Shown here in pieces: positions 6,189 to 23,986 of a stretch of DNA of 45,703 bases. The stretch's first letter is position 1, and each line of letters begins with the position of its first letter. This DNA is from Planctomycetota bacterium (GTDB taxonomy: Bacteria > Planctomycetota > Planctomycetia > Gemmatales > Gemmataceae). The notes beneath the pieces were generated by a model. That model was given only the letters and a program-made list of their open reading frames with translations, did not search any database and was not told the DNA's origin. Where the stretch lies: NCBI GenBank assembly GCA_021413735.1, contig JAIOPV010000087.1, forward strand, positions 1-45,703, given 5' to 3'. The position numbers and the translations under genes are program-made.

Positions 6189-6273
6189 CGGAAGGGCAGG
6201 GATTCGAACCCTGGAACGCTTTCGCGTTGCCGGTTTTCAAGACCGGTGCAATCGACCACTCTGCCACCCTTCC
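6189..6273 (-). tRNA. tRNA-Ser(UGA)
   Basis: 85-nt type II tRNA. Acceptor stem GGAAGGG/CCCTTCC with discriminator G; anticodon loop CTTGAAA gives anticodon TGA (reads UCA); long variable arm; T-loop TTCGAAT. CCA is not encoded. The 5' half (6234-6273) together with 9 bp of leader is duplicated at 23938-23986, so this gene is the integration target of the element to its right, and its present 5' flank is element DNA. Confidence 0.97.
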
Positions 6274-6282
6274 GGATTGCTC
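6234..6282. repeat. attL: 49-bp direct repeat in the 5' half of tRNA-Ser
   Basis: Begins TTTTCAAGACCGG and ends CCGGATTGCTC. It is identical over 49 bp to 23938-23986 and diverges on both sides. The crossover must lie inside this block, which covers the anticodon loop to 9 bp upstream of the tRNA. Confidence 0.93.
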
Positions 6283-6328
6283 AAAATCTAGCGTTCTAGC
6301 TCAAATCACGCTCCCGAACACTTCTCGC

Positions 6329-6371
6329 TTTACTACCGTCTCTACTACCACTAGACTGATTCGGTAGTAAA
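6329..6371. promoter_or_regulatory. Left integrase arm-type sites
   Basis: TTTACTACCG at 6329-6338, a core TACTACC at 6343-6349 and the exact inverse CGGTAGTAAA at 6362-6371. The same word recurs as an inverted pair near the right end (23801-23818) and I saw it nowhere between. They probably bind the integrase N-terminal domain, and being 73 bp before its start they may also autoregulate it. Confidence 0.6.
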
Positions 6372-6443
6372 AAGTTGTCCCGCTCCGACTGCGAATCAGA
6401 GCGGAACGACGCCACCTAACCCTTTGAACTGCAAGGTGTCGCC

Positions 6444-7769
6444 ATGTCCGATTCTACTCCTGCGCGCTCAGATCGAAAACCCGACCGGCCAAAGAAGCCC
6501 TACCCAGCTTTCCCGCTAACGCCACACGCTTCCGGTGCGTGGCAGAAGAAAATCCGTGGCAAGGTTCACTACTTCGGCAAATGGGCGAAGCGAGTCAAGG
6601 GTAAACTCGAACGCATCGAAGGCGATGGTTGGGAAGACGCACTGAAGGCGTACAAGGTTCAGGCCGACGACCTTCACGCGGGTCGCACTCCCAGGTTAAA
6701 GAATGACGGGCTGACGCTGGCCGACTTGTGCAACAGGTTCCTCACGTCGAAGACCCGCAAGAGGGAAGCCGGCGAACTCGGCGTTCGCATCTTTCAAGAC
6801 TACAAGGAAGTCACCGATCTGCTCATTGCCACGTTCGGGGCGAATCGCCTTGTAGATGACCTCGCGGCCGACGACTTCGGAACGCTCCGAGCGAAGATGG
6901 CTAAGAAGTGGGGTCCGGTTCGTTTGGGGAACACTGTCACGCGCTGCAAGAGCGTGTTCAAGTACGGCATTGATAACGGGCTGATCGAACGTGCGGTTCG
7001 ATTCGGAACCGAGTTCAAGAAACCCGGCAAGACCGTCATGCGGTTGCACCGTGCGAAGGGTGGCGAGCGCATGCTCGAAGCGGAACAAGTTCGCGCACTC
7101 ATTGAGGGTGCAATGATGCCGGGTGGCGATGCCGGCCCGGCGCTCGTGAAACCGACGCCAACGATGAAGGCAATGATCCTGCTCGGGGTGAACTGCGGGT
7201 TCGGCAACGCCGACTGCGCCTTGCTCCCTTTGTCGGCGATCAACTTGGATGAGGGATGGATCGTCTTCCCGCGTCCCAAGACGGGGGTTGCTCGTCGCTG
7301 CCCACTCTGGCCCGAAACGGTCGATGCGATCCGGACAGCGACGGGTGAGAAAGTGCGGCCGAAACCGGCAAGCTACGCGGAGTGTGGGCTTGCGTTCATG
7401 ACCAGCAAGGGGACACCCTGGATTCGTGTCCGCGAGGAGAACCGAACCGACATGATTACGATGCGGTTCAAGGAACTTCTCGAAGCCCAAGGCGTCTACC
7501 GCGACGGCATTAGCTTCTACACCCTCCGTCACGTGTTCCGCACCGTGGCAGACGCCGCACGCGATCCCGTGGCCATCGACACCATCATGGGCCACGCCGA
7601 CAACTCAATGGGTGCGGTGTACCGCGAACGGATCGACGACGCCCGGTTACGGGCAGTGACGGATTACGTCCGTGGGTGGTTGTGGCCGGCAATGACGCAA
7701 CCAAAAACCACCCCGACCACTATGACCGGACCGACCGCCAAACCCAACGAGGAACACGGCTCAAACTGA
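6444..7769 (+). CDS. Tyrosine recombinase (integrase)
   Basis: 441 aa. The C-terminal catalytic domain has Lys279 (PKTG), His363-x-x-Arg366 (LRHVFR), His384 (MGHADN) and the nucleophile Tyr393 (AVYRER). The first catalytic Arg, normally in a TGxRxxE context, aligns with CGFGNAD, where the Arg position is Gly254. The N-terminal part (about 1-220) contains a SAM-like core-binding region and a likely arm-binding segment. It lies directly beside attL and is transcribed into the element, as expected for the enzyme that integrates and excises it at tRNA-Ser. The Arg change may be a lineage feature rather than inactivation. Confidence 0.9.
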   Translation: MSDSTPARSDRKPDRPKKPYPAFPLTPHASGAWQKKIRGKVHYFGKWAKRVKGKLERIEGDGWEDALKAYKVQADDLHAGRTPRLKNDGLTLADLCNRFLTSKTRKREAGELGVRIFQDYKEVTDLLIATFGANRLVDDLAADDFGTLRAKMAKKWGPVRLGNTVTRCKSVFKYGIDNGLIERAVRFGTEFKKPGKTVMRLHRAKGGERMLEAEQVRALIEGAMMPGGDAGPALVKPTPTMKAMILLGVNCGFGNADCALLPLSAINLDEGWIVFPRPKTGVARRCPLWPETVDAIRTATGEKVRPKPASYAECGLAFMTSKGTPWIRVREENRTDMITMRFKELLEAQGVYRDGISFYTLRHVFRTVADAARDPVAIDTIMGHADNSMGAVYRERIDDARLRAVTDYVRGWLWPAMTQPKTTPTTMTGPTAKPNEEHGSN

Positions 7770-7895
7770 AGCTGTGATGCTATAGCGAGATGGCTGTTTG
7801 CGTGATAGTCTTTGCTGCCGGCTGATCCCCGCGCCAATCCCCGGGACTGCTGACGAATCCAGAGCGTCAGCGGTCGCCGGGGTCACTCTGGAGAC

Positions 7896-8597
7896 ATGTC
7901 AATGCCCACGCCGATTCCGGCCACACCCGGCCATTCGTCCAGACTCGACATTGAGAACTGGTTCCCTCTCGACGCATGGGAGAGCGTAAACCTGCTCTAC
8001 AAGTTGTTCGCGTTCATGGAACGTAACGGCACCAACGACCACCAGAGTTTTCTCAATCACTTCTTTCCGGGCAACGAGACTCTCGGTTTGGAGATGGCTG
8101 TTCGCAACAAGACTTTCGCACACAGTATCGAGGCCATCAAGATTGAGGCACTGCGAAACAAGATTCCCCTGTCGAATGGAGTGCTGGCCGAGATTTGCGC
8201 CGGGTCTCTCAAATGGGGTGAACCGTTACCGCTGGCAGTCCGCAACCAACTCACGCCATTGCTGGACGAGTTGCTCGCGCACCGGACACGAGTTCTCGCC
8301 ACCGAAGAAATCGAGACACCGGAAGACGGAACAGGACACGAGGAGAGCGTGAAGCCAGAGAGCAAGGACAAACCGGACAAGAGAGACATGGAACGGGCCG
8401 CGATTGCCGCTGTGCTCGCGGGCGAAATGAACGTCACGAAGATTGCCCGAGACCTTGCGGTACCCCGCACAACACTGAACGAATGGAAGCTGTTTAAGAA
8501 GACGCTCACCGCAGCCAGGAGGGCGGCGGAAACGAATAAGCAATCACGCCGGGGCAATTTCAGTGGTTCCAACGATTACGCACAAGAGGAGGATTAG
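7896..8597 (+). CDS. Putative DNA-binding protein with C-terminal helix-turn-helix
   Basis: 233 aa, start after GGAGAC. Residues 1-140 are an unrecognised helical region. A charged linker (EESVKPESKDKPDK) follows, then a homeodomain-like helix-turn-helix at about 179-200 (NVTKIARDLAVPRTTLNEWK) and a basic tail. It sits between the integrase and the excisionase-like genes, consistent with a regulator of excision or replication. The downstream 156 bp contains several CGTCAC motifs that could be its operators, which is inference only. Confidence 0.6.
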   Translation: MSMPTPIPATPGHSSRLDIENWFPLDAWESVNLLYKLFAFMERNGTNDHQSFLNHFFPGNETLGLEMAVRNKTFAHSIEAIKIEALRNKIPLSNGVLAEICAGSLKWGEPLPLAVRNQLTPLLDELLAHRTRVLATEEIETPEDGTGHEESVKPESKDKPDKRDMERAAIAAVLAGEMNVTKIARDLAVPRTTLNEWKLFKKTLTAARRAAETNKQSRRGNFSGSNDYAQEED

Positions 8598-8753: not shown

Positions 8754-8948
8754 GTGACAACAAGTCAGGTCAGCAACAACACCGCGAAAGAATGGCCGGT
8801 CTACTGGTTCGCTCGACTTGAGCGAGCCGTAGCAGAAGGCGACCACGAGGCCGCTGCCGAAGCACAGCGAGAATTGCGCCGGCTTGGTGTGACCGTGAAA
8901 TACGGTCGGCCCGCAGATCGAAAGGCGGTGGCAAATGGTCGCCGCTAA
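8754..8948 (+). CDS. Small hypothetical protein, 64 aa
   Basis: GTG start after CGGAGGATGCC. Opens with polar residues and then EWPVYWFARLERAV, a helical segment with many Ala and Glu (EGDHEAAAEAQREL). I have the impression that similar short proteins occur next to excisionase-like genes on planctomycete elements. Its end overlaps the next gene by 14 bp, so the two are translationally coupled. Function unknown. Confidence 0.65.
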   Translation: MTTSQVSNNTAKEWPVYWFARLERAVAEGDHEAAAEAQRELRRLGVTVKYGRPADRKAVANGRR

Positions 8949-9225
8949 ATCCCAGATCATGTTCACGGTTGAAGATCTTCGTCAGCGTTTCGGAGTGACC
9001 GAAGCGACAATTCTCACTTGGATTCACGCAGGTGAATTGAAGGCCATCAACGTCGGGCGCCATCCCGGACTGAAACGCCCCCGCTGGCGAGTCACGCAAG
9101 CCGCTCTCGACGCCTTCGAGGAGGCACGAACCCCGACCGCTACGCCGATCAAAAGCCGACCCAGGAAGCGAGCGGTTAGCGGCGTGATTGAGTTCTACCC
9201 CGTCGGTGGAAAGGCGGTGCGCTAA
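8935..9225 (+). CDS. Excisionase-like helix-turn-helix protein
   Basis: 96 aa. Residues 10-55 form a winged helix-turn-helix of the MerR/excisionase type (FTVEDLRQRFGVTEATILTW, then GRHPGLKRPRWRV as the wing). The basic tail KSRPRKR could contact DNA. Proteins of this HTH_17-like class act as recombination directionality factors or transcription regulators. Overlaps its neighbours on both sides by 14 bp and 1 bp within the replication operon. Which role it plays cannot be told from sequence. Confidence 0.75.
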   Translation: MVAAKSQIMFTVEDLRQRFGVTEATILTWIHAGELKAINVGRHPGLKRPRWRVTQAALDAFEEARTPTATPIKSRPRKRAVSGVIEFYPVGGKAVR

Positions 9226-9854
9226 TGAACGAGAGTTCTGAAACCGCAACCGCCCGATTGACCTTTGGCAGATTCGCCGGAAAGCCTCTCACCGACGTGC
9301 CCGCCGATTACTTGCTCTGGCTTGCCGACAACGCCGAAAGTGAGACGCTACGAAACCTCGCTCAGCAACAACTCGGACTCGAACCCGCTGACTTGGGGCC
9401 GGACCCAAGCCCCGAAGCGGCAAGTGTGGTTCTACCCGGTGTCATCTTTGAGTGGATCACCACCATGCAGCGGAAGCACGCGGGGCGCCCGCTTGCTCTC
9501 GCTGTGGTACGTGACGGCTCAGAGGTTCTGAAAACCATCTGCACACGGTACACCCGGAAGCAATGGCTCACCGACATCGAGACACGAACAGCGAAGCCCG
9601 CGAGCGACACCACGGCGAAGCCCGCGACACCCACCAGGAGCGAAGACGGGTGCGGCAAGTGTGGCGGCAACGAGCAACGACTCCGGTGGAAAACCATCGC
9701 CGGGGGTAACCGAGTCATCCGCGCCGAGTGCGCGAACTGCAACGCATACATCCGGTTCGCTCGTCAAACTCCGGCCAACGTCGCCGAGGCGGATCGTAAC
9801 CCATCACACGACGAATACCCGGCGCCACCTGCGCTGTTTGGAGGTGGCGCTTGA
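9225..9854 (+). CDS. DUF3820-like plus zinc-ribbon protein
   Basis: 209 aa, start overlapping the previous stop as TAATG. Residues 11-40 (LTFGRFAGKPLTDVPADYLL) match the short domain found at the end of exonuclease-X-like and DUF3820 proteins. A Pro/Thr-rich linker follows, then a C-terminal zinc ribbon with Cys143, Cys146, Cys169 and Cys172. It is translationally coupled to the primase-helicase gene by a 4-bp overlap, so it is probably an accessory DNA-binding factor in replication. That role is inferred from position. Confidence 0.65.
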   Translation: MNESSETATARLTFGRFAGKPLTDVPADYLLWLADNAESETLRNLAQQQLGLEPADLGPDPSPEAASVVLPGVIFEWITTMQRKHAGRPLALAVVRDGSEVLKTICTRYTRKQWLTDIETRTAKPASDTTAKPATPTRSEDGCGKCGGNEQRLRWKTIAGGNRVIRAECANCNAYIRFARQTPANVAEADRNPSHDEYPAPPALFGGGA

Positions 9855-12400
9855 ACACGCCCATTTTCGGCTACGCGATTGAGTACCGAGCCGCCGGCTT
9901 GTCGCCGATCCCCGTGCGGGTTGACGGCAGCAAGGCACCACTGTTGAACGGGTGGCGGGAGTTCGCGACAAGGCAAGCCACGGACGCCGAGTTGCACCAC
10001 TGGTTCAACAATGGCACCGTCGCCGGCATCGGCATCGCGTGCGGCCAAGCGAGTGGGAACCTTGTCGTTCTAGACATCGAATCCGCGGACGCGTGGGAGC
10101 GGTGGCGGAACGCGGTCCCGGTGGACACCGTTGATTTTCTCGAAGACTGCCCAATCGTCCGGACACCGCGAGGCGGTGCACACATCTGGGTTCGACTCCC
10201 GGAGCCGACCCCGGGCACCGTGCTTGCCAGGAAAGCCGACAAGTCGGTGCTGATCGAGGTGCGCGGAGAGGGGCACCAGGTTCTCGCGCCAGGTTGCCCG
10301 GCATCGTGTCACCCCACGGGCCGTCTGTACGAGTTCGCGGAGCGCGGTTGGCTCGACACCAAGAAGTCGGCACCCGTCCCGCTGTCGGTGTGGTTCGAGT
10401 GGCTCGACATCGCCGCTGGCCTGAACGAGTACACAACACCGCCGACCGCCAAGCCCACAAACGAGCCGCGACCGCCACGCGATCCACAGGCAAAAGACCC
10501 CGGAACGGATTTCAACATCCGCGGTAGTTGGGAGGAGGCCGGCTTGTTCGATACCGGCTGGAGTTGGGAACACCGGTTCGACGGGGATCGTGGTTACGTA
10601 CGCCGACCCGGGAAGGACACGGGGACATCCGGCACGATCGGCATGGTAACCAGTCGAACGACCGGCGCGCCGCTGTTCTATCCGTTCACCAGCAACGCAC
10701 ACCCGTTCGAGCAAGAGCACACCTACGACCGGTTCGGGGTGTTCGCCCGATTGAAGCACGCTGGAGATTTCAAGACCGCTGCGAAGGCATTACTTGATCT
10801 CGGTTACGGGGAGCGGACGACCCAATCCACCAAGGGCGCGACGGTGAACCGCGATCTTAAGCGTCAGGTGCCGCCAGTGTCGGAACCTGAACCAACCAAG
10901 GAGCGAAGCGACGAAGCCGCCGCCCCAGTGTCGCCGTTCACCGACACGGATATTGCCAACGGTCGGCGGTTTGTTCTCGACCACGGCGCAAGCGTCCGCT
11001 TCGTTGTGGATTGGAAAAGCTGGATCGTCTTCGACGGTCGCCGCTGGGTTCTCGACCGGTGCGACGTGATGGCCGAGGCGCTCGCCAAAACCACGACGGA
11101 CCGCATGGCATGTGAAGCCGCAAGCCGCATGGCGGATGCTGCGAAAGCGCTCGCCGCGGCCGGATCGGACGAAGCAAAGGAGCGAGCGAATCGTGAGGTG
11201 AAAACTGCGAAGCGCGATCTCGACCACGCGAAGAAGTCACAAGATATGCGGGCCATCCGGCGGATATTGAGCGCCGCACGGAGCGAGGCCGCAGTGAGAG
11301 TGCCGTATGGTCGCGACGTGTTCGACACTCACGCCCATCTGCTGAACTGCATGAACGGAACGGTTGACCTCCGCACGGGCTCGCTTACCCCACATCGCCG
11401 CGAGGATTTCATTACCCGGCTTTGCCCCACGCGGTTCAACCCGACCGCGGAGCGGGCCGGCTACCTTGAGTTTCTCGGGAAGGTTTTCGACGGCAAGCCG
11501 GCGCTCTCCGTCTACGTCCGGCAATTGTCCGGGTACGTCGCGACGGGGGAGACGTGCGACCACTCGTTTCACGTCTTCCACGGTGACGGGTCGAACGGGA
11601 AAAGCGTGTTGCTCACGCTCTGGACAACCGTACTCGGAGAGGGTGAGTACGAGCACACGGCCGCGCCCGAAATGCTCGTCGGTGACGGCAAGGATCGGCA
11701 CCCGACAGAGATGGTAGGACTTCGTGGGGCGCGTCTCGTCGTCTGTTCTGAGAGCAAGGAAGAGGGTCGGCTAGATGAGCCCAAGGTGAAGAAGTTGACC
11801 AGCACGGACATGCTGAGTGCCCGCGGCATGGGTCAAGACTTCTTTCAGTTCAGGCCAACCCACAAGCTCATCCTCGCGACGAACCACAAGCCCCGAATCC
11901 GCGGAACTGACGACGGTATCCGCCGCCGGATGCGGCTGGTTCCTTTCGCCGCGCAGTTCTGGAAAGAAGCCGACCGCCAGTTGCACCCCGAACGAGAGTT
12001 CGACCCCTCGTTCCAGGCCGACCCGAAGCTAGAAGACCGGCTCAAGGACACCGAGGCCGAAGGAATCCTCCGCGACATGGTGGAACACGCCGTTGCGTTC
12101 TACAAGGGCGGGAAAGCATTGACGCCCCCGACCGAGGTGACCGCCGCCACATCGGAGTACATCGAGTCGGAAGACATCATCGGCCAATACTTCAAAGCCC
12201 AAACCAAGGCCGACCCAGACGGCCGTGTGAAGGCCAAGGAGTTCCACGAGCAGTTCAAGAAGTGGGCCGTTAGCGAAGGGCACGACGAATCGCGGTTGCC
12301 CGGCATCAAGAAGTTCGGAGCGGAAGCCGGGAAACGCTTCGCATGCAAACGGCATGCGGGAACGGTTTATCTCGTCCGAGTGTTTGACCTTCAACCATGA
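9851..12400 (+). CDS. Replication protein: prim-pol primase/polymerase plus SF3 helicase (phage P4 type)
   Basis: 849 aa with a TTG start following GGAGGTGGCGC. The N-terminal bifunctional primase-polymerase domain has metal-binding Asp75 and Glu77 (VLDIES) and His111 (GGAHIW). The C-terminal D5-type SF3 helicase has Walker A GDGSNGKS (578-585), Walker B in RLVVCSESKEE, sensor ATNHKP and arginine finger RRRM. A long charged helical linker separates the two halves. Such proteins initiate and unwind at their own origin in satellites such as P4 and in many integrated plasmids. It overlaps the upstream gene by 4 bp. The large inverted repeat just downstream is a candidate origin. Confidence 0.92.
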   Translation: MNTPIFGYAIEYRAAGLSPIPVRVDGSKAPLLNGWREFATRQATDAELHHWFNNGTVAGIGIACGQASGNLVVLDIESADAWERWRNAVPVDTVDFLEDCPIVRTPRGGAHIWVRLPEPTPGTVLARKADKSVLIEVRGEGHQVLAPGCPASCHPTGRLYEFAERGWLDTKKSAPVPLSVWFEWLDIAAGLNEYTTPPTAKPTNEPRPPRDPQAKDPGTDFNIRGSWEEAGLFDTGWSWEHRFDGDRGYVRRPGKDTGTSGTIGMVTSRTTGAPLFYPFTSNAHPFEQEHTYDRFGVFARLKHAGDFKTAAKALLDLGYGERTTQSTKGATVNRDLKRQVPPVSEPEPTKERSDEAAAPVSPFTDTDIANGRRFVLDHGASVRFVVDWKSWIVFDGRRWVLDRCDVMAEALAKTTTDRMACEAASRMADAAKALAAAGSDEAKERANREVKTAKRDLDHAKKSQDMRAIRRILSAARSEAAVRVPYGRDVFDTHAHLLNCMNGTVDLRTGSLTPHRREDFITRLCPTRFNPTAERAGYLEFLGKVFDGKPALSVYVRQLSGYVATGETCDHSFHVFHGDGSNGKSVLLTLWTTVLGEGEYEHTAAPEMLVGDGKDRHPTEMVGLRGARLVVCSESKEEGRLDEPKVKKLTSTDMLSARGMGQDFFQFRPTHKLILATNHKPRIRGTDDGIRRRMRLVPFAAQFWKEADRQLHPEREFDPSFQADPKLEDRLKDTEAEGILRDMVEHAVAFYKGGKALTPPTEVTAATSEYIESEDIIGQYFKAQTKADPDGRVKAKEFHEQFKKWAVSEGHDESRLPGIKKFGAEAGKRFACKRHAGTVYLVRVFDLQP

Positions 12401-12404
12401 CAGC

Positions 12405-12504
12405 AGCAGATCAGCAGATCGGCATCATTTTCCGGGTAGTTGCTGGATTGGAAATTTCCCCACGAAGGACGACCCGGAAAACAGCTCCGATCTGCTGATC
12501 TGCT
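12405..12504. repeat. Nested inverted repeat after the replication gene (candidate origin or structured RNA)
   Basis: Outer arms 12405-12422 and 12487-12504 are perfect 18-bp complements built from repeated AGCAGATC. After symmetrical 5-nt internal loops, inner arms TTTTCCGGGT (12428-12437) and ACCCGGAAAA (12472-12481) pair over 10 bp around a 34-nt loop. It begins 4 bp after the replication-protein stop. Options are a replication origin, a strong transcript terminator or a small RNA. Confidence 0.7.
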
Positions 12505-12521
12505 GATCGAGGACAGACGAC

Positions 12522-13689: not shown

Positions 13690-14475
13690 ATGACGGCAGT
13701 TGAGCAGATGTTGAGCCAAGCGAAGGCCGCGAACGTCGCGCGGCAAGAAGGGTACAAGGCACGGTACGCCGACATCGTTCGCGCGACCGCGACGGGGAAA
13801 GAGATCGACCCGGAAAGCACCGTCGAGTTCTTGTCCGCGGCCGGCATCGAGTTCGAGCAGTATCAGAGCGACGTTGAGAAACTCACGACGCGGTTGGCAC
13901 TGGCAGCGAAGCATGCGGAGCTTTCCCGGCATCAACGCGAACTCGAAGAAGCGCAGACGGCCGCGGTCGCCCTGGACAACGCATTCACTGCGGCCGTCGA
14001 GAAGTTGCGCGCCGAAACGCTCGACAAGATCGCACCGCTACGCCGGACGATCACGGTCGCGTCGAAGGCAGTTGAAGAAGCCCAGGCCGCGGGCGCGAAG
14101 GTTTACGAGACGGCGCCGCAAGAACTTCGCGAGCGGTCGAAGGATTGCACCCGTCGCCTTGGGACTGCTCGCCAACAGTTGGCACAGGCCCAGGCCGACC
14201 TCGCCGAGTTCCCAAAATTGGTGGCCAAAGCCAAAGCCCTCGTTGCGAAGAGAGAAGGCAATCCGCCTGTCACAACGTTTGTGATCGATTACAAGGACGA
14301 GCAGTACCTTCGTGGCGTTGAGATGTGGAAGAAAGACGTGCAGCAGGCAAAGGACCAAATTCCGGGTGAGGCGATGCTGACAAGCATCAACAAGCGAATC
14401 GCCGATGCCGCGGCCTCGGTCGCGGAACTGGAACGCGAAAGCGCTGATCTCGAACGGCAGTTCATGATCGTGTGA
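13690..14475 (+). CDS. Coiled-coil protein, 261 aa
   Basis: Start at 13690 is supported by GCAGAGGCAAATC; the frame is open further upstream but overlaps the previous gene. Nearly all helical: long Ala/Glu/Lys-rich heptads between residues 45 and 185 (HAELSRHQRELEEAQ and so on), a short beta-like insert TTFVIDYKDEQ, then another helix. In a virion-like block such proteins can be scaffolds or minor structural proteins, but nothing here proves that. Confidence 0.6.
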   Translation: MTAVEQMLSQAKAANVARQEGYKARYADIVRATATGKEIDPESTVEFLSAAGIEFEQYQSDVEKLTTRLALAAKHAELSRHQRELEEAQTAAVALDNAFTAAVEKLRAETLDKIAPLRRTITVASKAVEEAQAAGAKVYETAPQELRERSKDCTRRLGTARQQLAQAQADLAEFPKLVAKAKALVAKREGNPPVTTFVIDYKDEQYLRGVEMWKKDVQQAKDQIPGEAMLTSINKRIADAAASVAELERESADLERQFMIV

Positions 14476-14542: not shown

Positions 14543-14908
14543 ATGGAACCCGCTGACAGCACTCCGACGACGCCCACGCCGCGCACCCCGGCTGAGCTTG
14601 CGGCACTCGCTGCTCAACTCGACAACCGGCGCGAGGCGTTGGCAAAGAATCGGAGAGACCTCGAAGACGCGGAGACCCGGAAACAGGCCGCGATTCTCGA
14701 AGCGAACCGAGAGTACAGCGCCGCCGTGACACTCGCCTACTCCGACTTCGCCACGACCGCCGACCCGCTGAATTCAGCCGAGCCAGAACTCTCCGCGGCC
14801 GTCAGCGAATCGGAAGGAGCGGCGACCGAGTTGGAGAAGCGAAAGGCGCGCGTCGCTGAGTTGATCGAGCAGTTGAACGCCGCAGAGTCCGTGTTGCCGA
14901 AGGCGTGA
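14543..14908 (+). CDS. Coiled-coil hypothetical protein, 121 aa
   Basis: Start uncertain: ATG 14501 would add a proline-rich leader typical of non-coding GC-rich DNA, so I prefer ATG 14543. The product opens with Thr/Pro repeats (TPTTPTPRTPAEL) and then two helical hairpins rich in Glu and Arg. Similar in character to the preceding coiled-coil gene, and possibly a partner. No known family. Confidence 0.5.
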   Translation: MEPADSTPTTPTPRTPAELAALAAQLDNRREALAKNRRDLEDAETRKQAAILEANREYSAAVTLAYSDFATTADPLNSAEPELSAAVSESEGAATELEKRKARVAELIEQLNAAESVLPKA

Positions 14909-14937: not shown

Positions 14938-15600
14938 ATGTACCCGTACCGAGATCCGCCCGAAGTCATTGCGGCACGCTTGGCCGAGGAGCAAGCCGCC
15001 GAGCGAGCGGCGAAGGCGTTGCTACCGCCGACTCGTCAAGATCGCGTCAATCAACTTCGGGCCGAACGTCTTCGGGATCCTTTCCCCGATCTGTTCGCCA
15101 CGTCGAGGCACGACCTGGTTGCATCAATTCCCATCTTTAACAACCTCTCTGTTCCCAAGATTCTGCCTTCCGGACTCGGCGATGACCTGGGGTTCTACTC
15201 GGCAAAGATTCTCATTCGTCCGGGAGCGTTCGACACGCATCTAGCGTTCCTCGAAAGCACCCGATACGTCCGGCTGTTATTGGACCATGACGACAAAGTG
15301 GAACTCGCAAACACGCTCGACGGCTCATTAGTTGTGTGGGCTGACGACACACACATCGCCGCATATGTCCGAGGCACGACGAAGCGCGGGGCAGAAGCAA
15401 TCCGATTGATTCGCGAGAAACCTCACCACAGGGAACTTTCGGCCGGGTGGACCGGCGTTGGTCGCTCGCTGCGACGGCATGACCCCATTCGCGCCGGCAA
15501 CAAGAACGACAGCATCGTTGAGTACAAGCGGGCGCGCCTGAACGAGATCAGCCTTGTTCGCTCCGGAGCCTTTTCCGGTTCAAAGGTCGAGTTCATCTAA
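14938..15600 (+). CDS. Prohead-protease-like protein, copy A
   Basis: 220 aa from the ATG at 14938 (CCGAGGTGACCGC upstream). Resembles HK97-type prohead maturation proteases (peptidase family S78/U35). His117 in LLLDHDD fits the catalytic His, Ser168 in RELSAGW fits the serine of the LSxG motif, and the domain ends with EISLVRSGAF as in that family. The first 70 residues are a charged helical extension. Family members cleave the scaffold and capsid protein during head assembly. No major capsid gene is recognisable nearby, which makes the substrate unclear. A paralog follows at once. Confidence 0.6.
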   Translation: MYPYRDPPEVIAARLAEEQAAERAAKALLPPTRQDRVNQLRAERLRDPFPDLFATSRHDLVASIPIFNNLSVPKILPSGLGDDLGFYSAKILIRPGAFDTHLAFLESTRYVRLLLDHDDKVELANTLDGSLVVWADDTHIAAYVRGTTKRGAEAIRLIREKPHHRELSAGWTGVGRSLRRHDPIRAGNKNDSIVEYKRARLNEISLVRSGAFSGSKVEFI

Positions 15601-15615: not shown

Positions 15616-16254
15616 ATGTGGCCCTCGCCGACATCAACCGCGTTCTGCTGGTCGCCTTCACTGGTCGCGCACGCTTCAACACGGGTACGCGAACCGGTAC
15701 CGCCGCGATCTGAGCGGAAAGCGACGCCGCAACTCACCGCGGCAAAGCGCCGGCAAGTTGTCTCGGAAACTCACGAGGACATGAGCGGCGTAGCGTTGTG
15801 GTTCGACTCGATCAGCGTCGTAAAAGCGCTTCCCGCCGGACTAGCAAAACTAGCCGGGTTCGATTCCGCCCAAGTCGTGTACCAACCCGATTCGCTCGAT
15901 CGTTCGCTATCACGGATACGATCCGGTTCGGCCTGGGTCAGATTCCAGTTCGAACACAACGACGATCTGAAAACATGCTCGACGCTCACCAATTCGTTGA
16001 AGGTTTTCGCCGACCGAAAAGCCCTTTACTTCCATGTGACGGGAAGCACTCGCGACGGCAGGAACAGCGTGAAGTGGGCGCGCATCTTCAAGGATTGTCG
16101 CGAGGTAAGCGCGGCCACTCACATTCACAAGTTTGCCGCTGTCCCCGCAGCCGAGGGCGAGCCTAACACGATCGTTGTGAGTGAGGCCGAGTTGTTCGAG
16201 ATCAGTCTCGTTGCTCTCGGGGCTTTTCCCCGCACTTGTTTCGAGTTCCTGTAA
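15616..16254 (+). CDS. Prohead-protease-like protein, copy B (paralog)
   Basis: 212 aa. Aligns with copy A along the whole domain: FEHNDD with His114 replaces LDHDD, REVSAAT with Ser165 replaces RELSAGW, and EISLVALGAF matches EISLVRSGAF. The His-to-Ser distance is 51 residues in both copies. The Gly after the Ser motif is lost (SAA in place of SAG), so activity may be reduced. Start is uncertain: the first 55 residues look poorly conserved, and Met at 15781 is an alternative. It starts 15 bp after copy A, suggesting a tandem duplication. Confidence 0.5.
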   Translation: MWPSPTSTAFCWSPSLVAHASTRVREPVPPRSERKATPQLTAAKRRQVVSETHEDMSGVALWFDSISVVKALPAGLAKLAGFDSAQVVYQPDSLDRSLSRIRSGSAWVRFQFEHNDDLKTCSTLTNSLKVFADRKALYFHVTGSTRDGRNSVKWARIFKDCREVSAATHIHKFAAVPAAEGEPNTIVVSEAELFEISLVALGAFPRTCFEFL

Positions 16255-16272: not shown

Positions 16273-17001
16273 ATGATCCGCAAAGTGAACATGAACGACC
16301 TTGCGTTAATCGAGTTGAGCAACACCGGCAGCACAGATGCGCCGGGTGAAGTGCTGGCGCAACTTGAACGCGCCGGCTACCTGACACTTCGAGGCGGCGC
16401 GAAGCTGACGGCATCGGGCCGAACCCGAGCGAAAGCGCTGACACCGATCGCAGGGAATTTGCGTGCAATGGGCGCGAGAGCGAACGCCGGCAGGTGCGCT
16501 CACAACCGCCGGAGGCACGTCACGCCGGTGACCGGTGGCGACCCGAACGCCACGCAGTTCGATCAGTGGCACACGCTTTCCCGGACCCTGAACACGAGGC
16601 CGATCATGTACGGCGGCGCGATCACGAATCCAGAATTTACGACCACGCCCACACCCGCACCCACTGCGACCACGTCGCCGCAAATCGGATTCGCGGCCGG
16701 CGGGCGCTGGTTCCCCCTCGCGATCACGCCAGCCCGGATCGAGGCCGGACGCATTGGCGGTATCGACCTCGCCCGCCCGCAGACCATATTCAACGGGTCC
16801 GGGCCCAAGCGTCTCATGTTGGCGGTTCAAGCTGTATACCTCGCCGCCGGTGGCCAGGACGACGAGGAAGGCGTAGCAGTCGCAGGCACGCGAGTAAGCC
16901 CCGAGCAGTTTGGCCGCATGATGGCTGACCCGAAAACCTTCGAGGCAGCGGGCCGCGCCTTGATCCTTGCCGCGATCGAGTACGCCAAGCAGCGAGCGTA
17001 A
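16273..17001 (+). CDS. Hypothetical protein, 242 aa, possible N-terminal winged helix
   Basis: Residues 20-55 (LAQLERAGYLTLRGGAKLTA and on) look like a winged-helix end with its beta wing. A basic stretch follows (ANAGRCAHNRRRH), then a Thr/Pro-rich linker (TTTPTPAPTATT) and an alpha-rich C-terminus rich in Ala (EAAGRALILAAIEYAKQRA). It lies between the protease pair and the tape-measure-like gene, so a structural role is also possible. Not recognised. Confidence 0.5.
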   Translation: MIRKVNMNDLALIELSNTGSTDAPGEVLAQLERAGYLTLRGGAKLTASGRTRAKALTPIAGNLRAMGARANAGRCAHNRRRHVTPVTGGDPNATQFDQWHTLSRTLNTRPIMYGGAITNPEFTTTPTPAPTATTSPQIGFAAGGRWFPLAITPARIEAGRIGGIDLARPQTIFNGSGPKRLMLAVQAVYLAAGGQDDEEGVAVAGTRVSPEQFGRMMADPKTFEAAGRALILAAIEYAKQRA

Positions 17002-17056: not shown

Positions 17057-18736
17057 ATGGCAGGTTCCCAAGGCGTGCGCGCTGGAAGGGCTTTTGTCGA
17101 ACTTTTCGCAAATGACAATGCATTAGTTCGCACTCTGGAGAAGGCCGGTTCCAAGCTGAAATCGTTCGGTGTGCAATCCGCGGCCGTGGGTGGCGCGATC
17201 GGCGCACCGCTCGCGAAGTCGTTTTCCGACGCGCTCAACAAGGGCGCCGAGATCAAGAATCTTTCGATTCAGTTCGGTGAAACCACGTCGAGCGTATCGA
17301 CACTCGCCGGCGCCTTCAATGTGGCCGGCGCGAACCTCGAAAACTTCGGCGGTTCAATCGACGGGCTGAAAAGCAAAATCAAGGCCGCGGCCGACGGGAA
17401 CGGTGAACTGGTTGAAGGTCTGCGAGGCTTACGCGGTCGCGACCTCATCAACATGAGCCTGGAAAAGCAACTCGACACCATCGCCGAACGGTTCAAGGAT
17501 ATCAAACTGGCGACCGATCAGACGGCAGTAGCGCAAGACCTGTTCGGCGCATCGGCCGCGAAGTTGCTGCCCTACCTGCGTGAAGGCGCAGCAGGGCTGG
17601 CGAAGCTGAAAGCCGAAGGAAAGAAGGCCGGCGAAATCATGTCCGACGAGGACATTGAACGCAGCTACACCGCGTCCAAGGCGTTGAATCTGGTTTGGGT
17701 GGAACTCAAAAACACGGTGGTTGCTCTCGGCGCGTCACTGCTACCCACACGCGGTCAGACCAAGAGCGTCACGGACGCCATCCGCGAAGCGTTCCAAAAT
17801 ACGCGCGCCTGGATTGCGGAGAATCGCAATTTCATCATCGCCGCAGCCGGAGCCGCGGCCGGATTGATCGGACTCGCCGGGGCAGCAGTCGGGGTAAAGC
17901 TCGCTCTTACTGCAGTGACCACGCTCGTTTCCGGTATTGGGCTAGCACTCGGGTTACTTTTGTCGCCCGTGGGGCTTGTGACGATAGCCGTAGTTGGAAT
18001 CGGCACGGCGTTTTTGACCTGCACGGAGACCGGGAGAAAGATGACTTCGGCACTTGGGGAAGCGTTCGCCGGGATGAAAGAATCATTCGGCGTTGCGTGG
18101 GGTGGAATCCGCGATGCGATCAAGGCCGGGGACATTGAGGGCGCGATGCAGATTGCCGGCGCTGGCATCAAGGCCATCTGGCGCGAACTACTTTTGGGAC
18201 TCCGCAAGGGGTGGAATGACTTCGTGAAGTGGATGGTGAGCATCATCAAGGATAACCCGATGTTGCTCCCCGTCATCGGCGCAGCCGTGGGGACAGCAGT
18301 CGGCGGGCCAATCGGCGCGGTCGCGGGACTCGCAGCCGGTACCGGCGCGAACTTCATCGACTTCGAGAAGCACCTATCCGCCGATCTGGAAGCCGCAAAC
18401 GCCAGCGTTAAAGAGGCCAAGGACGAGTTACGCGCGCTGGTGATGGGAAGGGGCAACAAGGGAGCGGCAGGGGACCAGGGCATCATCGACGGAGCCGCAG
18501 CGGACGCCGCCCGACTCAAAGCCTACGAGCAAATCAAGGACGCTGGGAAGAAACTCCCGGAGCTATTCGACCACAGCAAGGGCGTGTTTTCCGGGCCGAT
18601 CGGTCAGCAGTTGGGGCTTGGTGACAAGATCGCACAACGGCAACTCGACGTGCAGCAAAACATGGACAAGGGTATTCAGCAAGTTGTGAAAGGCGTGAAC
18701 GACCTCGGGAAAAACAAAGCTGTGTTCGGCCGGTAA
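17057..18736 (+). CDS. Phage tail tape-measure-like protein
   Basis: 559 aa. Layout typical of tape-measure proteins: N-terminal helical region with LEKAGSKLKSFGVQSAAVGG, then a conserved SIQFGETTSS segment, a strongly hydrophobic glycine/alanine stretch at about 259-319, a second hydrophobic stretch at 402-428 and a helical C-terminus. In phages this protein sets tail length and helps DNA entry. At 559 residues it would imply a short tail. No tail tube, chaperone or baseplate gene is recognisable here, so it may act with a helper phage or have another membrane-related role. Confidence 0.6.
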   Translation: MAGSQGVRAGRAFVELFANDNALVRTLEKAGSKLKSFGVQSAAVGGAIGAPLAKSFSDALNKGAEIKNLSIQFGETTSSVSTLAGAFNVAGANLENFGGSIDGLKSKIKAAADGNGELVEGLRGLRGRDLINMSLEKQLDTIAERFKDIKLATDQTAVAQDLFGASAAKLLPYLREGAAGLAKLKAEGKKAGEIMSDEDIERSYTASKALNLVWVELKNTVVALGASLLPTRGQTKSVTDAIREAFQNTRAWIAENRNFIIAAAGAAAGLIGLAGAAVGVKLALTAVTTLVSGIGLALGLLLSPVGLVTIAVVGIGTAFLTCTETGRKMTSALGEAFAGMKESFGVAWGGIRDAIKAGDIEGAMQIAGAGIKAIWRELLLGLRKGWNDFVKWMVSIIKDNPMLLPVIGAAVGTAVGGPIGAVAGLAAGTGANFIDFEKHLSADLEAANASVKEAKDELRALVMGRGNKGAAGDQGIIDGAAADAARLKAYEQIKDAGKKLPELFDHSKGVFSGPIGQQLGLGDKIAQRQLDVQQNMDKGIQQVVKGVNDLGKNKAVFGR

Positions 18737-18795
18737 CGATCCCCGTCACTCGATCCGGGCGCGGGCAACCGTGCCTTTCTCATTGGGGGCATGTG

Positions 18796-19335
18796 ATGAC
18801 CGCACCCGAAGCGACGGAGCTAACCGAGAAGTACATTCGGCTCGCGTTCAAAATCGCGAACCGCTGGGCAGCAAATCACCCGCACCTTCACGACGAGTTC
18901 GAAAGCGCGGCGGTATTCACACTCTGGCAATCGGCTCTTGGATTCGACCAGGCGCGAGACGTCCATTTCTCGACTTGGTTTCGCTTGCAGTGTCGATCCG
19001 CGCTCATTCGAGTGTTGCGGAAAGAGCGAGCCAAGGCACCGGAGATGTTCATACCGCAGTTCGTGCCCACGGAGAAGCAAGAGACGCACCCGGCCGAGCG
19101 AATTGCCGACCCGCGACGAGGGCCCGCGGAGGCCGCAGAAATCGCGCTCGATGCTGCCCCGTTGCTGCGAGCGCTCGACGCACTACCTGAGCGGCAACGC
19201 GATGTAGTGCAACGGCGCGTGATGCTGAACCAAAAGTTCGATGAGATAGCGGCCGCTCACGGGATGAGTCGCGCCAACATCGGGAACATCCTGAACGCTG
19301 CTCTGGATTCCATCAAAGCGAATCACATGGCCTGA
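18796..19335 (+). CDS. Sigma-70 family RNA polymerase sigma factor
   Basis: 179 aa from ATG 18796, with GGGGGC upstream; a GTG three bases earlier is an alternative. Region 2 spans about residues 30-75 (FESAAVFTLWQSALGF, FSTWFRLQCRSALIRVLRK) and region 4 spans 125-172 (LPERQRDVVQRRV, FDEIAAAHGMSRANIGNIL). Region 3 is missing, as in ECF-type factors. It follows the tape-measure-like gene and could direct transcription of element genes, like phage late sigma factors. Its target promoters are unknown and no anti-sigma gene is evident. Confidence 0.75.
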   Translation: MTAPEATELTEKYIRLAFKIANRWAANHPHLHDEFESAAVFTLWQSALGFDQARDVHFSTWFRLQCRSALIRVLRKERAKAPEMFIPQFVPTEKQETHPAERIADPRRGPAEAAEIALDAAPLLRALDALPERQRDVVQRRVMLNQKFDEIAAAHGMSRANIGNILNAALDSIKANHMA

Positions 19336-19362: not shown

Positions 19363-19581
19363 ATGACGACGTTAGCCGACTGCCTGAGCCTCCGCGAACA
19401 GAAAGAACACGACGCGGAACTGCTCGTGCGTATCCGCGCAAACGCGACGCCGCCAACACTGGCCGCGCTCTTCGACGGGATGGAACCACTTTGGGCACGG
19501 GAAGCCGCGGAGCGCTTACAGATCGCCGGGAAGATTCGCGAAGTGGAAGGCGAGCGGTTGGTAGCTGTCGCGAAGCGCTGA
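19363..19581 (+). CDS. Small hypothetical protein, 72 aa
   Basis: Good ribosome site AGGAG, 8 bp before the ATG, 27 bp after the sigma factor gene. Helical, with a middle segment LAALFDGMEPLWAREAAERL and an end (KIREVEGERLVAVAKR) that could be a winged-helix wing. Possibly a regulator that partners the sigma factor. Not recognised. Confidence 0.55.
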   Translation: MTTLADCLSLREQKEHDAELLVRIRANATPPTLAALFDGMEPLWAREAAERLQIAGKIREVEGERLVAVAKR

Positions 19582-19719: not shown

Positions 19720-19908
19720 ATGAATACCCCAGAGCCAGAGAAGAATGCAGACCAGCCGAAGCGTCGTGGAATGATGCAACGGCTGAAAGATTGGATCGAA
19801 GGCGCGTCGGTCGAGATAGACAAAGCAGAAGCTGACATCGACCGGAAGCGCAGAGAACTCGAAGAAAGGAACGCCCGTGGAACCCGCCGAACAGACGGAC
19901 GTATATGA
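19720..19908 (+). CDS. Small amphipathic helical protein, 62 aa
   Basis: No close AGGAGG-type ribosome site. Charged N-terminus (EPEKNADQPKRRG), then a long helix MMQRLKDWIEGASVEIDKAE continuing as an Arg/Glu-rich coil. Its last 32 bp overlap the start of the DUF6414-like gene in another frame, so the two are translationally coupled and probably act together. It could be a membrane-binding peptide or a partner subunit; no family is recognised. Confidence 0.5.
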   Translation: MNTPEPEKNADQPKRRGMMQRLKDWIEGASVEIDKAEADIDRKRRELEERNARGTRRTDGRI

Positions 19909-20662
19909 CTTCCTTTACCGCGATCCCTCACGGGTCGCGTCATACTACGCTCAACTCCACGGAGGGCAGGTACTCACCACCGAAATCGGCGGCCAGAGCC
20001 GAGAGGCGACAGAAAACCTCATTGGTGGAAGTCTCACGCTCGCCAAAGGGGAACGGAAGAAAACGAAAGATTACACCACTACTCGCAAAGAGCAACTCGC
20101 ACCGCACGACACAGCCACCGTGGACATGATTGGCACATTGAAGGCGAAGGGGAAATTTTGGGACAAGCACCCCAAGAACGCTCCGAATGGTTCCTTGGTT
20201 CAGATTGAAGGAACACTATCATTTGCCGATTCCGCAATGCTTAGACTGGCATCCTCTGTTGATGAAGACACCTGGGTGTCTTTGATGAGTCAACAAGGGC
20301 AACAGGGGAAATACGGTAAGCCGGGCAGACAGGAAAAGGCCACCGCAAAACTCATCAAGGCGCTTCTCCAATCACTCGAAATTCCTTCCGTGTACTTTCT
20401 CTGGACGCCAGAAGGAACCTATGTCGGATCGGTGAAGGAAGCTGGCTTGGACGAGCCAATCGGCGGCTATTACTACAAGCATGGTGATGGCGGACTTCCT
20501 GGCGCGGTCGTGGTCGGAATCCGAGAGACTGCAACCCCGTCAGCAATGGTGAATGCGGGACTTGTAGGGGCAACCCTCAACATGGCCCAAGTGCTTCGGA
20601 ATCTTGTCTTTCCAGAAGATGCCATCCGTGTTGCTCCACTCGCAATCTATCGAAGACTGTGA
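19877..20662 (+). CDS. DUF6414-like protein, possible cargo or defence gene
   Basis: 261 aa with a GTG start after AAAGGAACGCC. The N-terminus VYDFLYRDPSRVASYYAQLHGG resembles, from memory, DUF6414 proteins, which open with a tyrosine/aspartate motif followed by a serine- and glutamine-containing helix. A SKKV-type catalytic motif is not seen. A beta-rich middle segment (QIEGTLSFADSAMLRLAS) and a hydrophobic C-terminal third follow. Its position at the right of the element, after its own possible promoter and before a giant hairpin, is where mobile elements carry cargo. Function unknown; a defence role is inference. Confidence 0.5.
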   Translation: MEPAEQTDVYDFLYRDPSRVASYYAQLHGGQVLTTEIGGQSREATENLIGGSLTLAKGERKKTKDYTTTRKEQLAPHDTATVDMIGTLKAKGKFWDKHPKNAPNGSLVQIEGTLSFADSAMLRLASSVDEDTWVSLMSQQGQQGKYGKPGRQEKATAKLIKALLQSLEIPSVYFLWTPEGTYVGSVKEAGLDEPIGGYYYKHGDGGLPGAVVVGIRETATPSAMVNAGLVGATLNMAQVLRNLVFPEDAIRVAPLAIYRRL

Positions 20663-20916: not shown

Positions 20917-21044
20917 GGAAGGCTATTCCAGCACCGCTTTCGGCCCCCTGGGTCCAGGGGCCCTGTCGGTCTGGAGCAACCTCACCAGTCGCGGTTCCGA
21001 CAGGGCCCCTGGACCCAGGGGGCCGGCGGTGCCGTGAGCCTTCC
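20917..21044. ncRNA. Giant 128-nt hairpin, candidate non-coding RNA
   Basis: Three successive arm pairs: GGAAGGCT (20917-20924) with 21037-21044; GCACCGC (20931-20937) with 21026-21032; and a perfect 28-bp pair, 20942-20969 with 20997-21024, around a 27-nt loop. Each 28-bp arm is itself near-palindromic (CCCCTGGGTCCAGGGG), so each arm could also fold alone. Total 43 base pairs. Strand and transcription are unknown, and no reverse transcriptase is nearby to suggest a retron. Confidence 0.6.
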
Positions 21045-21949: not shown

Positions 21950-22008
21950 CTGAACGGTCGATGCTGCATGACGGCAGAACGACGAGGCCGGAGCGGTCAG
22001 CGCTTCGA

Positions 22009-22159: not shown

Positions 22160-22192
22160 CAACGTCCCCCACCCTTATCAGGAGTCGAGAAC

Positions 22193-22564
22193 ATGACCAG
22201 CGTACCCACGACAGCGCCAGCGATCAAGACCGCCCCATCCGTCGCGCTTGTCACGAGGCCCAGGAATCGCGTCTTGCACGCGATCAAGGCCAACAACGCC
22301 AAGGCAGAGCAACCCGCCACCATTCGCAGCAACGAGGCCCGCGAGCGCTTGCATGCGTGGCTCACACGGATCGTCGGAGAGATGCGAACAGTGAGCGAGG
22401 GAATGGGAGGCGTCGCGGATGCGTTCACAGCAGAAGAGCGTCGGGAGATGGTTCATGCGCTCGAAGGCGCGAGTGAGTTTCTTTCCACCGTGCTACCCAA
22501 AACGGTTCCCGACGAGCTTGCCGCGTTGTTCAGCCGACGCGAAGCCGGACGAGATCGCGGTTGA
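22193..22564 (+). CDS. Hypothetical helical protein, 123 aa
   Basis: ATG 22193 follows GGAGTCGAGAAC; the frame is open 42 codons further upstream but through the leader hairpin. Thr/Pro-rich start (TSVPTTAPAIKTAPS), basic region RPRNRVLHAIKANN and two helices (ARERLHAWLTRIVGEMR, AEERREMVHALEGASEFL). No known domain. First gene of a plus-strand pair with the zinc-ribbon membrane protein. Confidence 0.6.
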   Translation: MTSVPTTAPAIKTAPSVALVTRPRNRVLHAIKANNAKAEQPATIRSNEARERLHAWLTRIVGEMRTVSEGMGGVADAFTAEERREMVHALEGASEFLSTVLPKTVPDELAALFSRREAGRDRG

Positions 22565-22795: not shown

Positions 22796-23416
22796 ATGCG
22801 AGCCGAGTACGTCTGTCCAGAGTGCGAGGAAACCATTCTTGCGCCTGAGTCGCTCGCCGGCTCGTCAGCACCATGCCCAAAGTGCAAAACTCTCATCGCC
22901 CGCTGGCCATTGCCATTGGAGAAGGAGGCGATTCCGTTGCCAGAATCACTCCCGGCGAAAAAGACACGTGAACGATTCGAGTACGTCTGCCCTGCGTGTA
23001 ACGAGATTATTGAGTCAGGTAAAGGGCTGGAAGGCTCAACAAATGACTGCCCAGAATGCGGCTCTCGTATCAAGAAATGGCCAGCCCCAAAGCCACCGAA
23101 GGTAAAAGCGAGGCCAGCTTGGCAAAGAGCCATCATCGCTGCCGTCCTGGCCGTCGTCCTCGTTGTCGTTGCTGCTACTGTTTTGGCCTACGTCTCAAGC
23201 CGGCCGAGCGAGGCCGATCTCGCTGAGTCGGCGAAACCGCTTGTCACACAAATCATTCGCGACAATGGCGGCTACGAGAAATGCATCAAGGTTGAAATCC
23301 TTGGTCGGATTGATGGCGGTGGGTACAAAGCCGCTGCCGAATTGAGCAACGGGCGGTTTCTGCCCATTACGATCCACAAAGTAAAAGGCATGGTCTACGT
23401 CGAAATACAGCGGTGA
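22796..23416 (+). CDS. Double zinc-ribbon membrane protein, 206 aa
   Basis: ATG after GGGGAAAG. Two zinc ribbons: Cys7/Cys10 with Cys27/Cys30, and Cys65/Cys68 with Cys85/Cys88. A single transmembrane helix spans about 112-133, followed by an outer domain (AKPLVTQIIRDNGG ... MVYVEIQR). The ribbons are cytoplasmic if the helix is a type II anchor. Such proteins are frequent in planctomycetes. A stress-sensing or recruiting role at the membrane is a guess. Host-like gene possibly carried as cargo. Confidence 0.65.
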   Translation: MRAEYVCPECEETILAPESLAGSSAPCPKCKTLIARWPLPLEKEAIPLPESLPAKKTRERFEYVCPACNEIIESGKGLEGSTNDCPECGSRIKKWPAPKPPKVKARPAWQRAIIAAVLAVVLVVVAATVLAYVSSRPSEADLAESAKPLVTQIIRDNGGYEKCIKVEILGRIDGGGYKAAAELSNGRFLPITIHKVKGMVYVEIQR

Positions 23417-23520
23417 CTCAACTCGTCGGCGGGTAATCTGTGGTGAATTGACCTCCGTTACCCGCACTTCCCACCAACCCGCGACCGCCACGCCGTTCAC
23501 CACGTCGCCGCGGTGTTGGA

Positions 23521-23724
23521 TCACTGCATCTGCTCATGCCTCTCGATGTGTTCTTTCGCTCGACGAATGCCGACCAACGCAACGAGTTTGTGAAGACTGT
23601 TCAGCAGTTCGGCGACATCCAATTCCGCCTCGGCTCTACCCCTGTCGTAATTGCCCTGATCGCGGGTCAGATTTGCGATCTTGCCGCCCCTTTTGCGAGC
23701 ATAACTCGGTGGGCCCTTAGCCAT
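23521..23724 (-). CDS. Small basic hypothetical protein, 67 aa
   Basis: ATG at 23724 preceded by GGGGGAACGGTT. Basic, Gly-rich start (MAKGPPSYARKRGGKIANL), then a long helix ending AKEHIERHEQMQ. The last gene before the right end; small proteins at this position often regulate integration, which is inference from place only. Confidence 0.55.
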   Translation of the reverse strand: MAKGPPSYARKRGGKIANLTRDQGNYDRGRAEAELDVAELLNSLHKLVALVGIRRAKEHIERHEQMQ

Positions 23725-23800
23725 AACCGTTCCCCCATTGATCAAAGTTATTCTAATAATATCCAGTGTATTACCCCGCGAAGCCGCGAGCGGTTCAGAC

Positions 23801-23818
23801 CGGTAGTATTTACTACCG
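23801..23818. promoter_or_regulatory. Right integrase arm-type sites
   Basis: CGGTAGTA (23801-23808) abuts TTTACTACCG (23809-23818), an inverted pair of the word found near attL, 120 bp inside attR. A direct copy of TCTAGCGTTC is also shared by both ends (6287-6296 and 23888-23897). Confidence 0.6.
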
Positions 23819-23937
23819 CGAGGGGCTGTTTTGGGTTGTTACGGGATGTTTTGGTGAGCCGTGCGAAGTGTGCGAACGCCTGGAATTTCTAGCGTTCGGT
23901 GCGTTTCCAAGGCGATAGCAGAGTTGGCCGAAAATGC

Positions 23938-23986
23938 TTTTCAAGACCGGTGCAATCGACCACTCTGCCACCCTTCCGGATTGCTC
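23938..23986. repeat. attR: 49-bp direct repeat, partial tRNA-Ser copy
   Basis: Identical to 6234-6282. Only the 5' half of the tRNA is present, so it is not a functional tRNA. The DNA to its right (from 23987) is the original upstream flank of tRNA-Ser and has a TAAGAT box suited to the old promoter. Confidence 0.93.

Follow-up and report, generated by a model that had tools for sequence, protein, structure and literature searches.

A 17.7-kb element carrying selected virion genes

We analysed a stretch of 45,703 nucleotides from a planctomycete of the family Gemmataceae (positions 1 to 45,703 of GenBank contig JAIOPV010000087.1, assembly GCA_021413735.1; the whole stretch is referred to as the window). 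It holds an element of 17.7 kb bounded by a perfect 49-bp direct repeat, with nearly all called genes on the plus strand (Table 1). The repeat and the matches to Pfam and PHROGs families confirm a preliminary description of this DNA as an element between two attachment (att) sites that carries an integrase, an excisionase-like helix-turn-helix (HTH) protein, a primase-polymerase helicase and a sigma factor. PF04586 and PHROGs likewise bear out its two prohead-protease-like genes and its tape-measure-like gene. The stand-alone proteases K and L both exceed the Pfam cut-off for S78 (21 bits), L barely, and copies of L that are 44-53% identical occur in two other elements. Besides its best family, protein N matches seven more PHROGs with the name tape measure (E≤0.0013) and is referred to as the tape measure protein (TMP). 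The C-terminal domain of protein M, encoded upstream, has homology to the product of the gene that precedes TMP in full phages. By this position and homology, and by weak structure matches, M probably ends in a tail-assembly chaperone (TAC), which had gone unrecognised in the preliminary description.

The other parts of a virion were not recognised. Pfam and PHROGs scans of 20 element proteins, that is, all but the small frames at 8754, 13137 and 13404, gave no significant match to a capsid, portal, large-terminase, tail-tube or lysis family. Protein K matched the 'major head protein' family phrog_13042 at 0.2, within its S78 part, and the zinc-ribbon protein matched GpA_ATPase at 0.082, below the cut-off; both matches are at chance level. 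No match named after the P4 proteins Sid, Psu or Delta appeared among the 20 proteins, no search being aimed at them. The absence of these late genes, which the preliminary description had reported, thus stands: no hidden capsid or large terminase gene, its sign of a prophage, was recognised in the window copy, and the capsid, portal and terminase genes of a complete prophage were all missing from the recognised set. The element is integrative, has mobility and replication genes of its own and lacks a full virion gene set, as phage satellites in general do, and we consider it well supported and probable that the window holds an integrated satellite.

A self-sufficient phage could give the same picture if its capsid, portal and terminase were too divergent for recognition. 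Several genes are indeed without assignment, the HTH protein encoded at 7896 has weak matches to three small-terminase families (0.0025, 0.17 and 0.23), and a large terminase is present in two of the 12 related elements described below. However, the small-terminase matches probably reflect the HTH alone, the largest unassigned protein is, at 261 aa, short for a portal, and the model of protein I is a long coiled coil. The proteases and the TMP fall into recognised families while everything else of a virion is missing, and these gaps return across the 12 elements, which makes a self-sufficient phage very unlikely.

Table 1. Features of the element and its integration site in the window (positions of the contig; ".", strand not applicable).
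Feature	Position	Strand	Evidence or remark
tRNA-Ser(TGA), integration target	6188..6273	-	ARAGORN
attL, 49 bp	6234..6282	.	perfect direct repeat
Tyrosine integrase	6444..7769	+	PF00589 4.8e-7, phrog_1 6.4e-31; homologues in two related elements
HTH protein, regulator	7896..8597	+	weak small-terminase-like HTH matches, phrog_7344 0.0025
Excisionase-like HTH_17 protein	8935..9225	+	PF12728 1.9e-9, phrog_66 excisionase 2.3e-6
209-aa protein adjoining primase gene	9225..9854	+	homologue in element G015 (6e-10)
Prim-Pol/D5/DUF5906 primase-helicase	9851..12400	+	PF09250 1.1e-16, D5_N 1.7e-23, DUF5906 4.6e-11
Imperfect inverted repeat with internal repeats, 3' of primase gene	12404..12505	.	
Protein I, long coiled coil	13690..14475	+	all-helical model; in 11/12 elements
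Protein J, short coiled coil	14543..14908	+	also in element G016_C8 (8e-13)
Stand-alone S78 prohead protease K	14938..15600 (longest frame from 14905)	+	PF04586 4e-6, 27.5 bits
Stand-alone S78 prohead protease L	15616..16254	+	PF04586 2.7e-4, 21.5 bits
Protein M, 242 aa: winged-HTH-like N-part and probable TAC	16273..17001	+	weak structure matches
Tape measure protein (TMP) N	17057..18736	+	phrog_8462 3.3e-20
Sigma factor O	18793..19335	+	sigma-70 regions 2 and 4; homologue in 9/12 elements
Small protein	19363..19581	+	also 3' of sigma in element G022_C3a (1e-17)
DUF6414 protein, likely accessory	19877..20662	+	4.3e-8; also phrog_9699 2.2e-13
Perfect 29-bp inverted repeat, stretch without called genes	20941..21025	.	
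Small protein	22193..22564	+	codon-based gene call
Double zinc-ribbon protein with hydrophobic stretch	22796..23416	+	
attR, 49 bp	23938..23986	.	perfect direct repeat

Related elements in the genus

Among 102 genomes of the order, the S78 query found matches in seven, all within the genus of the window, and the TMP query in 21. We fetched the surroundings of part of the S78, TMP and I matches, called genes with a codon-score script and examined 12 elements from seven of the 19 genomes of the genus, scoring gene presence with hidden Markov models (HMMs) built from these loci (E≤0.001). Protein I is present in 11 elements, a stand-alone protease in 11 (S78 in 10; S49 in one, matching phrog_53 at 1.8e-58), a sigma homologue in nine and a TMP in eight; the loci were entered through S78, TMP and I, so that these three counts are partly given by construction. 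Two of the TMPs are divergent, those of G010b and G012b, with an hhalign probability of 73% (E 3.2e-5, 99 columns aligned). The gene that follows TMP in phages, c4, occurs in three elements and never together with TMP, and one element has neither. Portal, capsid, tail-tube, decoration and connector genes were found by these HMMs in none of the 12. A check with phage genes of the type found in prophage C185, described below, gave capsid- and portal-like matches only at element G015, beyond its ends. A further locus of the genus outside the 12, in G023, has I without a virion gene. The planctomycete satellite proposed in the preliminary description is thereby strengthened by a recurring element without portal, capsid or tail tube; the large terminase that PHROGs identified in two of the 12 qualifies it.

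The preliminary description had also called for a search for the same gene order with the same att type. A similar gene mix was found in the 12 elements, but the integrases differ: the shared cassette of the window, G010b and G012b stands beside tyrosine integrases, that of G016_C8, G022_C3a and G022_C1 beside serine recombinases. Ends were located at a 61-bp repeat at tRNA-Ser(CGA) for G022_C3b (20.6 kb), at 45 bp at tRNA-Asn for G016_C24 (15.3 kb) and at a 12-bp core for G015 (16.0 kb). On contig C24 of G016 (L078) a second integrase gene comes immediately after the tRNA-Asn-bounded element, which suggests tandem elements; the protease gene of the tRNA-Asn-bounded element encodes two S78 domains of different origin.

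In an alignment of 10 satellite S78 proteins (G012c being left out), inspected by eye, the His and Ser of what we take to be the catalytic triad (His/Ser/Glu) are kept in all 10, and the third residue is Glu in nine and Asp in one. The S78, TAC, TMP and sigma proteins of the window, G016_C8 and G022_C3a are 41-53% identical, and the I proteins 26-35%. In every gene pair compared among these three, third codon positions change more (0.56-0.68) than first and second positions. The three TMPs closest to that of the window (43-50% identical) all belong to elements of the same kind and none, among the matches listed, to a full prophage; close relatives that are full prophages, which the preliminary description had set against a satellite, thus did not appear.

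These comparisons bear on whether the element is a prophage in decay, from which the genes for head, packaging and tail tube have disappeared. Full planctomycete siphophages have relatives of its virion genes, as such an origin would have it. However, a similar subset (S78, TAC, TMP and sigma) is kept in three species with open frames at this divergence and with an excess of third-position changes, which upholds the earlier argument from intact frames. The att sites are intact, the clade of the window TMP contains satellites only, and I is absent from all full phage loci surveyed below. We therefore disfavour decay and regard it as most improbable.

Searches of IMG/VR with a single TMP query, with S78 and with sigma gave no confirmed relatives, and protein searches with I and with S78 returned four proteins each, including the window's own (about 8000 candidates scored). 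A contig of G014 whose ends share a 48-bp repeat was set aside as a candidate circular form, since a stretch within a called gene resembles the repeat too. Two TMP loci of another genus, G051a (L062/L063) and G051b (L071/L072), extend over about 30 kb without other morphogenesis genes. A TAC-like gene is present in G051a, and serine-recombinase-like genes in G051b, which also has two gene families in common with G022_C3b. Both may be further satellites.

Comparison with full phages

The survey covered 160 TMP loci: from genome contigs the best 80 of 226, and from IMG/VR the best 80 of 520. In 137 of them at least two other morphogenesis families lie within the stretch, and these were taken as full loci. 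Protein I was found in none of the 137 and a sigma match in two; I occurs in two of the 160, both already among the satellites. Sigma matches also lie near two further full prophages, G052_C12 and G089, and the sigma factor is therefore not exclusive to satellites. Siphophages with a fused protease-capsid gene (for example G052_C7 and G092) share homologous TAC, TMP and S78 domains with the element, but have their own terminase, portal, capsid, decoration, connectors and tail tube, and I was not found there; in G052_C7, PHROGs identified terminase, portal, protease-capsid fusion, decoration and major tail protein.

A TMP tree of 46 rows was built from the first 420 residues of 24 of the 130 TMPs of full loci, further TMPs of more than 400 aa and four class-level ones, leaving out the G098 fragments. 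A satellite-only clade at 100/100 unites the window, G016_C8, G022_C3a and G022_C3b, and the other satellite TMPs fall elsewhere. The label satellite or phage changes six times on the tree, at least three changes being forced by starred branches; three changes may also be one gain and two losses, and the bootstrap is not fully settled. By default, G051a and G051b carried the label phage; the count remains six if they are disregarded and becomes eight if they are taken as satellites. The TAC-TMP pair was probably captured more than once from siphophages.

Besides the satellite domains, the S78 tree comprised 18 of 84 capsid fusions longer than 560 aa, four others and the C185 protease, the S49-type fusions (G052_C12, G001) and a capsid fragment (G010a) being left out. 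The 11 satellite domains (11 proteins from 10 elements, K and L apart) lie on one side at 92/92, a branch that is not starred. The N-domain of the two-domain protease of G016_C24 falls among phages, as does the capsid fusion of G310b, and its C-domain with the satellites. Some rows of the trees are long, and placements inside them are therefore unsure.

The window TMP has 559 aa, near the 580 aa of its sister phage, and the other satellite TMPs range between 433 and 741 aa, where the median of 150 TMPs from the two best-80 sets is 664. On these lengths we reject the resizing of a helper's tail suggested in the preliminary description. Replacement of the helper TMP fits better.

Protein I beyond the genus

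A profile of I, whose structure model is long and helical, matched 59 of 397 genomes of the class (E≤0.001). Among 40 class-level I loci, six have clear virion genes (G010c, G211a, G310b, G046, G195 and G012c), five further ones have a capsid- or portal-like HMM match somewhere in the stretch (G208, G220, G335, G354 and G310a), and the remainder have no virion gene by HMM. On account of the six, I was rejected as proof of a satellite. PHROGs scans of 45 of the 60 proteins neighbouring I in the remaining 34 loci, leaving out 15 HExxH proteins, listed 25 of 61 families, none of them for heads or tails. At least two of the more distant elements with I encode a capsid protein, which qualifies the absence of late genes as a satellite trait; with the large terminase in two of the 12 closer relatives, late-gene content evidently varies. 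In two elements we observed I followed by a capsid gene: G310b (L139 8578-13669) has the order I, protease/capsid fusion, TAC and TMP, and G046 (L135 4086-5315 and 5802-6488) has I and capsid. Both elements have integrase and primase, and no terminase or portal was seen.

An HExxH-motif gene lies directly upstream (within 22 nt or overlapping) of 15 of the 39 class-level I genes that have an upstream gene; the HExxH-related protein of G014 matches M90 in Pfam at 1.6e-4, below the cut-off. The finding of I beside S78, S49 or HExxH proteins suggests that I and the neighbouring protease may form a substrate-protease pair. Overlapping genes for a helicase or primase, an HExxH protein and I were also observed in L120, L121, L123, L124, L127, L132, L133 and others, mostly without a virion gene by HMM; L127 and L133 have capsid- or portal-like genes farther off.

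Loci in which I is accompanied by primase and ParB-like neighbours, often with HExxH and with no virion gene seen, would also suit a plasmid-like integrative element whose protease- and TMP-like genes work outside the virion, perhaps at the membrane or in maintenance. Yet TAC and TMP remain together and ordered as in phages, and they alternate with c4; this indicates a role in tail assembly, and we give a plasmid-like element very little credence.

An insertion in a phage gene and candidate helpers

The element of G015 (L064 3003-15001, L065 1-4025) is inserted in a phage S78-type protease gene, with a portal-like gene and the protease start on one side and the remainder of the protease and a capsid-like gene on the other. 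Searched apart, the larger protease piece matches the C185 protease at 1.1e-8 and the smaller only at 0.023. The element carries its own S78 gene and a large terminase, in the orientation opposite to the interrupted gene, and the few phage genes around it look like a remnant. The element of the window lies in tRNA-Ser, and G015 is the only relative located within a phage protease gene.

The genome of the window (G000) yielded no capsid of the TMP lineage. Its contig C185 (L077) holds a siphophage prophage with head-morphogenesis protein, S78 protease, capsid, TMP and fibre genes, which is a possible helper and has relatives in G011, G012 and G094. Capsid genes of the TMP lineage are present in the satellite-bearing genomes G010 and G022.

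Proposed mode of action

In the satellite reading, induction by a helper siphophage would lead to excision of the element, which would replicate by its own primase-helicase and switch on its late genes with its sigma factor. The TAC-TMP pair would substitute for that of the helper, whose tail tube would polymerise around the satellite TMP. The S78 proteases and protein I, the latter possibly a scaffold acting in trans or a protease substrate, would act on helper head assembly, and helper shells would mature around satellite DNA, with capsid, portal, terminase and tail tube supplied by the helper. Of these steps, we lean slightly towards chimeric tails, with a satellite TMP in hijacked helper tails. 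Control of helper heads by the proteases, whose presumed catalytic residues are kept, is put forward tentatively. Possible but rather doubtful is the wider proposal that the group reprograms both virion ends: tails through TAC and TMP or the tail gene that follows, and heads by pairing I as scaffold with an interchangeable protease (S78, S49 or an HExxH metallopeptidase).

The same genes might serve a resident anti-phage island, the proteases and TAC-TMP being decoys that spoil assembly of an invader and the element gaining by protection of its host. Interference with tail assembly from satellites and prophages is on record for Tai (PMC11364771) and Rta (PMC12987554). Against this, 10 proteins gave no convincing PADLOC match (one coiled-coil match at 0.007), and a complete TMP with chaperone, mobility, replication and sigma genes exceeds what decoys need. 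Defence and a satellite life are not exclusive either, since the Vibrio element PLE11 does both. We hold a purely defensive island to be unlikely and prefer an integrated satellite.

Comparison with known satellites

P4 has a Prim-Pol/helicase replicase and a tRNA attachment site and is without its own capsid or tail tube. The window element resembles it in all of these, with a Prim-Pol and helicase order that we take to be P4-alpha-like, and differs in carrying TMP, TAC and proteases.

Phage-inducible chromosomal islands (PICIs) combine 10-20 kb, an integrase, an HTH_17 excisionase-like gene, a DUF5906 primase and variable captured late genes (PMC10111431, PMC12987554). The element is similar, and its integrase, AlpA-like HTH_17 excisionase and primase genes all point in one direction, as in PICIs. 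The captured genes are here a stand-alone protease and TAC-TMP, with I and sigma in addition, and in PICIs mostly capsid; of the small terminase that PICIs own, the element shows weak HTH matches only. The insertion of G015 in a phage late gene of the kind it encodes recalls helper-embedded PICIs, one of which interrupts a capsid gene while carrying its own (PMC10111431). However, G015 is opposite to, not co-oriented with, the interrupted gene, and few phage head genes surround it.

In tail genes the element is similar to the PICI-like element (PLE) of Vibrio cholerae, which has a satellite TMP with TAC and no tail tube of its own (PMC12987554). In the window element, too, a TMP and a probable TAC were found and no tail tube. 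It comes from a different phylum, its genes are of siphophage type, and it has S78 proteases, a Prim-Pol/D5 replicase and a sigma factor. In the planctomycete elements TMP alternates with the post-TMP gene. Chimeric tails were described for PLE in 2026, and the authors call this the first case and mention putative tmp genes in other satellites (PMC12987554). Satellites with phage late genes, TMP and TAC in particular, are known from PMC10111431 and PMC12987554; the 'new satellite family' of the preliminary description is a fair term for the gene set, by which these elements probably form a new group, and the capture of such genes as such is not new. In the titles and abstract openings searched, no planctomycete phage satellite is described and, among the entries listed, Gemmata is not mentioned. 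Prohead proteases are called typical of tailed phages or known satellites, and were absent from the element studied, in PMC12324425. No redirection of heads by a stand-alone satellite protease without a capsid gene was found in the literature searched, as far as its available text extends; within these bounds, a protease standing alone next to a coiled-coil protein suggests a mechanism on the head side that is new among satellites. If the proposed role is true, the choice of TAC-TMP in a second phylum would make tail reprogramming a general satellite strategy.

Integration site and further features

The left repeat overlaps nucleotides 1-40 of tRNA-Ser(TGA). As the att repeat corresponds to the 5' half of the tRNA gene, integration parts the tRNA from its own upstream region; most integrators at tRNA genes restore the 3' end. 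The gene on the right flank is present in 17 of the 19 genomes of the genus; none of nine loci scanned has a tRNA within 1.5 kb, and no empty site was found. A gene placed at 21447 in the preliminary description was not picked by the codon-based gene call and has no family match. The inverted repeat 3' of the primase gene is a possible terminator or origin, and both strong inverted repeats of the element are candidates for an origin, a packaging signal or a terminator.

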